Below are positions 4,868-6,199 of a DNA stretch of 11,271 nucleotides, piece by piece. How positions within the stretch are numbered: position 1 is the first letter of the stretch; each line of letters starts with the position of its first letter. Below the pieces are notes generated by a model. That model saw only the letters and a program-made list of their open reading frames with translations. It was not told where the DNA came from and made no database searches. The DNA is from Cyanobacteriota bacterium (GTDB lineage: Bacteria; Cyanobacteriota; Cyanobacteriia; Leptolyngbyales; Leptolyngbyaceae): contig JAIXVO010000494.1 of NCBI GenBank assembly GCA_027482985.1, positions 1-11,271 on the forward strand, written 5' to 3'. The translations under genes and the position numbers were made by a program.

Positions 4868-5770
4868 TTAGGCTTCCCGAATCCCCATCGCCATTTGCAA
4901 CACAAACGGCAGACCACCAACCTCGTGATAGCGATCGGCCCAGGCACGAATAATTTCATCCAGTTCTGCCATTGCCGCATCGACTTTTTCAGCAGGAATG
5001 TCTAATTCTTCCAGGACGCGCATCACCTGCGGTTGTCGGTTCGCCCAGTCATTCATCAGGCGGAAGTAGCGAGCGGTATCTTCCACCATGATGTAGGTGC
5101 GTTCTTCATCAGCCGCCGGGGAGTAAGAAGCGCGGGTGAGGGCATAGAACGGCATCCCCCAGGGCGTGTCGAGTCGGGTGACGGTGCCCGAATACAACAG
5201 GCGACGTTTGATATGTTCCGCCAGGGCCTCACTCAGGGGCATCCGCCGATCTTCGGGCAAATCTTCCTGCGATCGCGCGTGCAAAAACTCAATCAAATCG
5301 AGAAATTGAAACGCGTTGATCACCTGGGCATCGGGCAGATTTCCCGGCGGCAACTTTTGTTCTAGCTGACGTTTCTCTTCGGAGGTGTAGCTCGTGCTAG
5401 CAATGCGCGATCGCCCCGGTTGCCAGGGAAACTGCTCCATCCAGACATAGGGCAACTGGATTAAATACCGGGGTTCTTGAGACCCCAACATTTTCAGCAG
5501 TTTCCCTTCAGTCAGGGCTTCTCTCACCTCTTCCACGATCGCCTTCACGCGTTTTGGCTCAATGTGATGCAAATGACCCGTCATCCGGAGGTTATTATCC
5601 TGTTCCAGATAAGTCATATAAATGGCACACTTTGCCGCCGTGGCAGCCGCATCCAAAAAGGCTCCATGTCGATGCCCACTGGTGCGCATCGCGCTAAACG
5701 CTAAATACAGCATGATCTGATCCATCGCACTAGGGCCAAGGCGTTTAATCAGATCGAGATCATTGGTCAT
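4868..5770 (-). CDS. hetR: HetR, master regulator of heterocyst/pattern formation
   Basis: A 300-residue HetR, against 299 for the Anabaena protein as I remember it. HetR is a dimeric DNA-binding transcription factor that drives heterocyst differentiation and is inhibited by RGSGR peptides derived from PatS, PatX or HetN. The N-terminus [18 protein letters not shown] is diagnostic. The DNA-binding segment [15 protein letters not shown] keeps the Arg at 62, and Cys48 is present. The flap segment lies around 100-215. The C-terminal hood domain contains [15 protein letters not shown]; its Arg224 matches Anabaena Arg223, a residue implicated in peptide sensing. Ser180 matches Anabaena Ser179. The Ser152 equivalent appears to be Ala153. 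The ATG at 5770 is chosen over an in-frame GTG at 5800 because it gives the canonical family N-terminus. patX lies 231 bp upstream on the same strand and the M48 protease gene 148 bp downstream. The family call is essentially certain. Confidence 0.97.
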
Positions 5771-6001
5771 CGTGAAATTGTTACCCTGCTGAACACACAC
5801 CCATGCGTAGCTTAGTTATACCAACTGCACTTCAAAACAGATTACTTTTATATCGTCTGGATGCGAAATATCAGCAGCAGACAACAAAACGCCCTAATTT
5901 CGTCAGGATTCCGTTCTAATCGTGCAGTGTGAGGCTACTCATACTGTATTATTCCCCACCTTGGGAGATTTCGGACGTAGCAAAACGGGTTGACTGTGAG
6001 T
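5771..6001 (-). promoter_or_regulatory. hetR upstream region
   Basis: This 231-bp gap between patX and hetR is AT-richer than its surroundings and has no credible ORF, so it probably holds hetR promoter elements. The best -10-like hexamer on the minus strand is TATAAC (5820 to 5815), 44 bases before the hetR ATG. No good -35 precedes it. A GTA-N9-TAC half-palindrome (5807-5821) overlaps it but is one base longer than the NtcA consensus GTA-N8-TAC. I see no GGGT-N-CCCC element like the HetR sites described in Anabaena, and no terminator for patX, so read-through from patX into hetR is possible. Confidence 0.4.
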
Positions 6002-6199
6002 TTAGGCAATGGGAGCATCCACAAAAGTCACCCATTCAATCCGACCACTGCCCCGGTGTTTGGGTTGGCCGCGTTTCTGCACCAAGTGCGTTTGACCAGT
6101 GGTGGAATTAAAGGAAGTTTGAGCCGCCGAGTTAACGGGTAAGGTGACCACACCCGTGAGAAACAAGCTGGTCAAGCAGAGGGAGGTGAACAAGTGCAT
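6002..6199 (-). CDS. patX: PatX-like secreted precursor with HRGSGR inhibitor motif
   Basis: A 65-residue protein. Residues 1-25 form an export signal: a short N-terminus, then hydrophobic LCLTSLFLTGVVTL, then a small-residue cleavage zone VNSAAQ. The mature part is short and hydrophilic and carries HRGSGR at residues 48-53 (codons 6058 to 6041), 12 residues from the C-terminus. RGSGR is the pentapeptide shared by PatS, PatX and HetN that binds HetR and blocks its DNA binding. PatX proteins are known as small exported RG[ST]GR proteins that co-occur with hetR in filamentous cyanobacteria and are often encoded next to it. Here the gene precedes hetR by 231 bp on the same strand. The ATG at 6199 has GGAAG (6211 to 6207) at 7-base spacing. 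That site is partly inside an 11-bp RNA helix, which suggests translational control. The 12 residues after the motif are unusually many, as far as I recall. The call rests on motif, signal peptide, size and neighbour. Confidence 0.85.
   Translation of the reverse strand: MHLFTSLCLTSLFLTGVVTLPVNSAAQTSFNSTTGQTHLVQKRGQPKHRGSGRIEWVTFVDAPIA

Follow-up and report, generated by a model that had tools for sequence, protein, structure and literature searches.

The window analyzed here, an 11,271-nt stretch (contig JAIXVO010000494.1 of assembly GCA_027482985.1), carries a very small open reading frame immediately upstream of hetR, which raises the questions of whether this frame encodes a PatX-type precursor of an RGSGR peptide, how it would be transcribed, and whether its product would act on the neighboring HetR. 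The host genome is a 5.2-Mb draft in 838 contigs (84% complete) with a nifH gene above the curated cut-off (468.6 bits versus 394.35); to judge from its relatives, the host is probably a Leptolyngbyaceae-like filamentous cyanobacterium without heterocysts. The gene order on the minus strand is ndhH (6373-7563), a hairpin, patX, hetR, and a gene for an M48-type peptidase. The terminator-like hairpin past ndhH and ahead of the patX promoter (6322-6339, minus strand) is a consensus match alone, and two hairpins of this type were found in 4700-6400, versus 1.6 expected in shuffled sequences. No Rfam family matched the window at the gathering thresholds, and the HetR site GGGN5CCC matched once in the window, at 9414, and not close to patX or hetR.

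The 65-codon frame at 6002-6199 (minus strand), with its ATG start, HRGSGR motif, and 12-residue tail, was found just as the preliminary description had reported it. In the translated ORF, the hexapeptide occupies residues 48-53 (6041-6058, minus strand) and is followed by the C-terminal tail IEWVTFVDAPIA (6005-6040, minus strand). Residues 3-22 are hydrophobic, and inspection by eye and hydropathy suggests that residues 1-26 (6122-6199, minus strand) are a probable export signal with a possible S-A-A/Q cleavage after residue 26 (SAA/QT); its weak point is the n-region, which contains no Lys or Arg and only His2. Most relatives also have a hydrophobic N-terminal stretch, their start codons having themselves been chosen by hydropathy. 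Four database relatives (P0002-P0005, 57-85% identity) have QTHLVQKRxQxKHRGSGR in common, and the protein database labels exactly this 65-aa protein PF28278.1, a Pfam family; our searches of the NCBIfam library and of a Pfam set without PF28278 gave no match. The motif codons vary silently among relatives (CACCGGGGCAGTGGTCGG, CATCGCGGCAGCGGACGG, and CATCGAGGCAGTGGTCGT), and dN/dS was below 1 in all 10 pairs of the five nearest genomes (for example, 0.51/1.49 against L004 of the same genus), a rough ratio since dS exceeded 1 in all 10 pairs and was near saturation. A codon search of the host genome for RG[ST]GR gave 407 matches, versus 563 in the reversed control, and the genome may well encode more RGSGR proteins than this one.

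The neighborhood of hetR was then compared across genomes. We searched 97 genomes, 69 of which had a hetR match, and examined the sequence ahead of hetR at 70 loci in 67 genomes; G003 and G094, with little or no upstream sequence, were excluded, and the stretches were short at L044 (G057) and a few other loci. Weaker second hetR-like matches, such as those in G067, G072, G021, and G060 and the second copies of G049 and G084, lay outside the survey. An RG[ST]GR ORF on the same strand was located upstream of hetR at 56 of the 70 loci, equivalent to 55 of the 67 genomes, and the opposite strand of the same stretches contained none (0/70). Several of these ORFs, at L059, L060 (G049), and L069 (G060), are doubtful, being short or lacking TCCTGA at its usual place. 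The preliminary description had proposed this comparison and had named beforehand, as grounds for giving up its claim, a lack of RG[ST]GR in the syntenic ORFs of close relatives; the motif proved to be conserved. By its sequence, the gene at 6002-6199 is a PatX, as the preliminary description had proposed.

In six further genomes (G019, G028, G078, G068, G062 with two copies, and G044), patX was located away from hetR, bringing the co-occurrence of the two genes to 61 of the 67 genomes. The patX genes of G019 and G028 (L093 and L094) were located by the promoter pattern alone. The two unlinked patX genes of G062 (L219 and L221) differ in that one has TCCGGA and the other TCCTGA upstream. We did not find patX in the remaining six hetR genomes, for which every H/Y-RG[ST]GR pattern match was checked by script (G081 and G057) or six loci each from a noisy promoter search were examined (G059, G075, G084, and G051). 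This search, for TCCTGA-N-GTA-N-ATG, did yield the unlinked patX of G044, and its matches (64 in G044, 24 in G059, 21 in G075, 8 in G084, and 30 in G051) are too noisy to prove absence. Among 30 loci from the promoter-pattern search, a PatX ORF was present within 420 nt in 15 and absent from this distance in 15.

The hetR gene (4868-5770, minus strand) encodes a 300-aa protein with the Pfam domains Peptidase_S48 and HetR_C that scored 567 bits against NCBIfam NF009718 (cut-off, 489), and it thus matches the curated family model and has the Hood domain. The nearest named HetR found was that of the metagenome-assembled genome Leptolyngbyaceae cyanobacterium C42_A2020_001 (89% identity). The 300-aa form aligned from residue 1 at 63 of the 70 loci, and the gene likely starts with the ATG at 5770 rather than the GTG at 5800, which sets the patX-hetR gap at 231 bp (5771-6001, minus strand). 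The earlier placing of hetR downstream on the same strand stands; the ORF extent given with it was probably ten codons too long. Residues R223, E253, E254, D256, D270, and D278 of Anabaena HetR bind or lie close to PatS6, according to the available part of PMC4649674. All six contacts are present in the window protein, at positions 224, 254, 255, 257, 271, and 279, and the DNA-contact residues R62, H69, E71, K73, R74, and K76 are also retained. Contacts were scored at 83 of the 110 loci tried, the other 27 having failed a string filter and some genomes being counted twice; the set was REEDDD in 77 and RETDDD in 6, and at least five of the six contacts were present in 83/83. The six RETDDD proteins, in which Thr replaces the contact residue Glu254, are those of L129, L132, L136, L153, L157, and L165.

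The 57 ORFs showed preferences around the motif. The residue ahead of the first RGSGR was H in 38 and Y in 14 (H or Y in 52/57), and E or D stood two residues past the first motif in 33. The preliminary description had remarked that the tail would need C-terminal trimming if RGSGR itself is the active form, a fair point, although such a tail is no peculiarity of the window gene: 12 residues is the commonest tail length (18/57), and 7 of the 57 ORFs terminate exactly at the motif. In the accessible text on the HetR-PatS6 structure (PMC4649674), HetR is said to recognize the residue preceding the motif by its main chain alone, so the H/Y preference points to another reader, which would most simply be the maturing peptidase. 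Two peptides have been reported to flank HRGTGR after the action of PatP, one of them GPDIIFWAHDR (PMC12756182, in part). We found that this peptide, treated there as a flank of the PatX motif, comes from the fusion partner, the maltose-binding protein; C-terminal trimming is therefore not directly shown in the literature available.

Some precursors carry more than one copy of the motif. Six hetR-linked patX genes have 2-8 RG[ST]GR copies (L031, 8; L045, 5; L058, 4; L054 and L057, 3 each; L056, 2). Searching the database with the eight-copy protein as query yielded 57 proteins (P0006-P0062), each with at least 2 copies and together holding 246; there were 2 copies in 1 protein, 3 in 14, 4 in 22, 5 in 9, 6 in 10, and 9 in 1, counts that are no frequency estimate since the query was itself multi-copy and only candidates sharing most words were scored. 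Successive copies were 10 residues apart in 99 of 189 intervals and 12 apart in 43, and the repeat unit is often of 10 residues, as in YRGSGRIETA. P0045 (110 aa), from Leptolyngbya cf. ectocarpi LEGE 11479, begins with a hydrophobic stretch, carries six copies, and is PatX-like; this differs from the 2025 survey, the available part of which gives this strain as an example of patP and hetR without patX (PMC12756182).

The stretch ahead of patX contains a promoter-like element. TCCTGA, a DIF1-like -35 element, is located at 6256-6261 (minus strand), 62 nt before the patX ATG. A possible -10 element, TATCAA (6231-6236, minus strand), lies 19 nt past TCCTGA; it was proposed from the leader alignment, and its last base misfits TANNNT. 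Among the 57 ORFs, 53 had TCCTGA 56-68 nt before the start, the start codons being those chosen by script according to hydropathy, versus 7 copies at other positions of these upstream stretches (up to 150 nt). Of the other four, L059 has TCCTGA at 69, L060 lacks it, and the remaining two are the doubtful ORFs of L069. TATCA or TAACA followed TCCTGA by 18-19 nt in many leaders, and TCCTGA-N16/17-YCGTAWCA occurred once in the draft genome, at patX. Elhai and Khudyakov (2018) reportedly found PatX to be marked by a DIF1 motif within 69 nt upstream. In Anabaena, DIF1 is TCCGGA, centered at -35 and HetZ-dependent, as given in the available text of PMC7377430. The window TCCTGA at -62 is a one-base variant of TCCGGA and is a DIF1 only if TCCKGA is counted.

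Both forms occur in named strains. Of 80 named hetR loci, 36 had a recognizable patX, with TCCTGA in 31 and TCCGGA in 5; many of the 31 are genomes of the first survey, and most heterocystous loci had no patX inside the fetched flank. The five TCCGGA loci belong to Iningainema, Nostoc sp. RI_552, Mojavia, Chrysosporum, and Nostoc sp. 106C, which we take to be heterocyst formers; the element is at -62 or -63, and patX lies on the strand opposite to hetR at a distance of about 7-9.5 kb. A separate observation concerns L084 and L099, near 1501 in two genomes of genus g7, where a TCCTGA-type element containing TCCGGA is followed by CCGTATCAG. This element lies approximately 125 nt ahead of a gene whose long product contains GYSDGTFRPxAPITDAQF, and there is no PatX ORF within 420 nt.

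The pair probably works in this organism as an exported-hexapeptide/HetR-release system. In such a system, patX would be transcribed from the TCCTGA (DIF1-type) promoter and the precursor would be exported by Sec; periplasmic cleavage, performed in Nostoc by the peptidase PatP, would free HRGSGR, and the hexapeptide, inside the same or a neighboring cell, would dock in the HetR Hood domain and take HetR off DNA. The gene, its conservation, the promoter element, and the intact receptor contacts were observed here; export, PatP dependence, HetR binding, and DNA release have been demonstrated in Nostoc/Anabaena. PatX6 (HRGTGR) binds HetR with a KD of 88 nM and abolishes DNA binding, and export is required (PMC12756182, available part). 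We infer that the product would inhibit the window HetR, in support of which this protein keeps the six peptide-contact residues of Anabaena HetR. Necridia formation and filament fragmentation are the processes proposed to be under patX-hetR control where there are no heterocysts.

A dyad, TCCGTATCAAG-(10 nt)-CTTGATATGGA with one G-T mismatch, is located between the promoter element and patX (6209-6240, minus strand). Its center, near 6224, is approximately where a start site 35 nt past the middle of TCCTGA would fall, so that it overlaps the predicted -10 element and start. In an alignment of 53 leaders, the eleven pairs were standard in 66.8% of cells, versus 60.7 (sd 1.1) in shuffled alignments (0/500 shuffles reached this value), 40 cells had a double change versus 26.2 (1/500), and the covariation score was 0.270 versus 0.195 (sd 0.015; 0/500), with 0.044-0.115 in slid registers. 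Two of the five covariation measures were not above the shuffles (double-change pairs, 7 versus 7.9; further pair types, 19 versus 22.6), and all such counts are inflated by related sequences. L052 and L053 keep 9/9 pairs with different letters (TCTGAATCA/TGATTCAGA). By generic stem scoring, 13 of the 53 leaders had 8-9 of 9 pairs, versus 1.7 expected from shuffles; the controls gave 5/53 for patX-hetR intergenic stretches and 1/53 for stretches upstream of TCCTGA. The five TCCGGA promoters reached 6 of 9 pairs at best, the commonest shuffle value. The exact pattern GTATCAR-N8/13-YTGATAYRGA was present in 5 of 58 genomes, solely at patX in G000, G001, G002, and G015 and a single time in G051, for which no patX is known; it occurred once in the window's own draft genome. 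Elsewhere, L079 near 1501 (G007) has a complete patX-type promoter and dyad with no RGSGR ORF behind it; approximately 310 nt downstream is the start of a 47-aa ORF that includes a hydrophobic stretch.

Our reading of the dyad as a patX-specific, operator-like element in a subset of lineages is moderately supported. It is quite possible that the dyad has no function and that leader kinship and the conserved -10 region imitate covariation, considering the two measures that stayed within the shuffles, the 50 of 2000 shuffles that equal the dyad score of the window leader by itself, and the many leaders that have no good stem; on the other hand, each of the remaining three measures was reached by at most one of 500 shuffles, slid registers scored far lower, and well-paired leaders were more frequent than the shuffles predict. 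The covariation along the stem, together with fold z-scores of about -3.5 for L052 and L053 among six folded leaders, would also fit an alternative to a DNA operator, namely an RNA hairpin in the 5' leader. This is unlikely, because with TCCTGA as the -35 element transcription would start inside the loop and leave the 5' arm untranscribed, mismatch cells of G-T (69) and A-C (62) were about equal with no clear RNA wobble bias, RNAalifold gave no consensus structure, and the window leader folded with a z of only -1.41.

The pair itself also admits other readings. That the small ORF is a chance ORF bearing a chance RGSGR might be suggested by its size and by the lack of matches in the Pfam and NCBIfam libraries searched, but conservation across the family, the opposite-strand control, the silent codon changes, the promoter element, the four database relatives with their common sequence, and the label PF28278.1 all argue against it; for practical purposes, conservation already refutes this reading. 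A subtler reading is that PatX is real and exported but has a main target other than HetR, the RGSGR and the place beside hetR being inherited and HetR inhibition minor. Deleting patX in Leptolyngbya BL0902 changed transcripts in a way that the authors describe as basically independent of hetR, and in the two gene groups on which patX and hetR act in opposite directions the double deletion resembles the patX deletion and not the hetR deletion (PMC11298460, available part); this study speaks against simple antagonism. The residues favored on either side of the motif go beyond a main-chain reading by HetR, so something else selects them, and a peptidase is no less plausible in this role than another target. 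Given the contacts retained in the window HetR and across the scored proteins, and the adjoining genes in most genomes, we regard a main target other than HetR as improbable and prefer the exported-hexapeptide/HetR-release system.

The presence of patX beside hetR, non-heterocystous strains included, is an already known arrangement: patX accompanying hetR (PMC7761841) and patX immediately upstream of hetR in non-heterocystous Leptolyngbya (PMC11298460) are both in print, as far as the available parts of these reports show. What is added here is the TCCTGA/TCCGGA split, the promoter dyad of a subset, and the polyprotein-like precursors, none yet tied to function; the literature searched, which did not extend to Elhai and Khudyakov (2018), contained no mention of multi-copy PatX, the dyad, or TCCTGA, and we do not claim novelty. 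It is conceivable, if rather doubtful, that non-heterocystous lineages possess a dedicated patX switch (TCCTGA plus start-site dyad) that was lost once TCCTGA became TCCGGA in heterocyst formers, and that, in parallel, polyprotein precursors with as many as nine RGSGR copies, often at spacings of 10 or 12 residues, let some lineages make more morphogen from each transcript. If so, selection would act on [HY]RGSGR-x-[ED] as a unit and not on RGSGR by itself. The patX-hetR pair is considered older than heterocysts, and its role in heterocyst-free filaments is at stake. In the window, the pair is clean and the receptor intact, within a Leptolyngbya-like genome that carries nifH, and the range of one to nine peptide copies per precursor makes dose and processing testable.

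The window gene resembles PatX of filamentous cyanobacteria, Nostoc/Anabaena PCC 7120 among them, in its small precursor with a probable hydrophobic export signal and RG(S/T)GR, in the H often found before the motif, in its DIF1-like promoter, and in its tie to hetR. It differs from the five named heterocyst formers, in which patX is distant from hetR, on the other strand, and preceded by TCCGGA with no good dyad, whereas the window patX stands 231 bp ahead of hetR and has both TCCTGA and the dyad. PatS and HetN also carry RGSGR and inhibit HetR according to the literature; for these two, unlike PatX, the cytoplasm is the likely site of precursor synthesis and cleavage, as stated in the available part of PMC12756182. 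By description, not by sequence, the pair is also like that of Leptolyngbya sp. BL0902, a non-heterocystous strain with patX directly upstream of hetR and a predicted DIF1 promoter (PMC11298460, available part); BL0902 is without a nif cluster, whereas the window genome has nifH.
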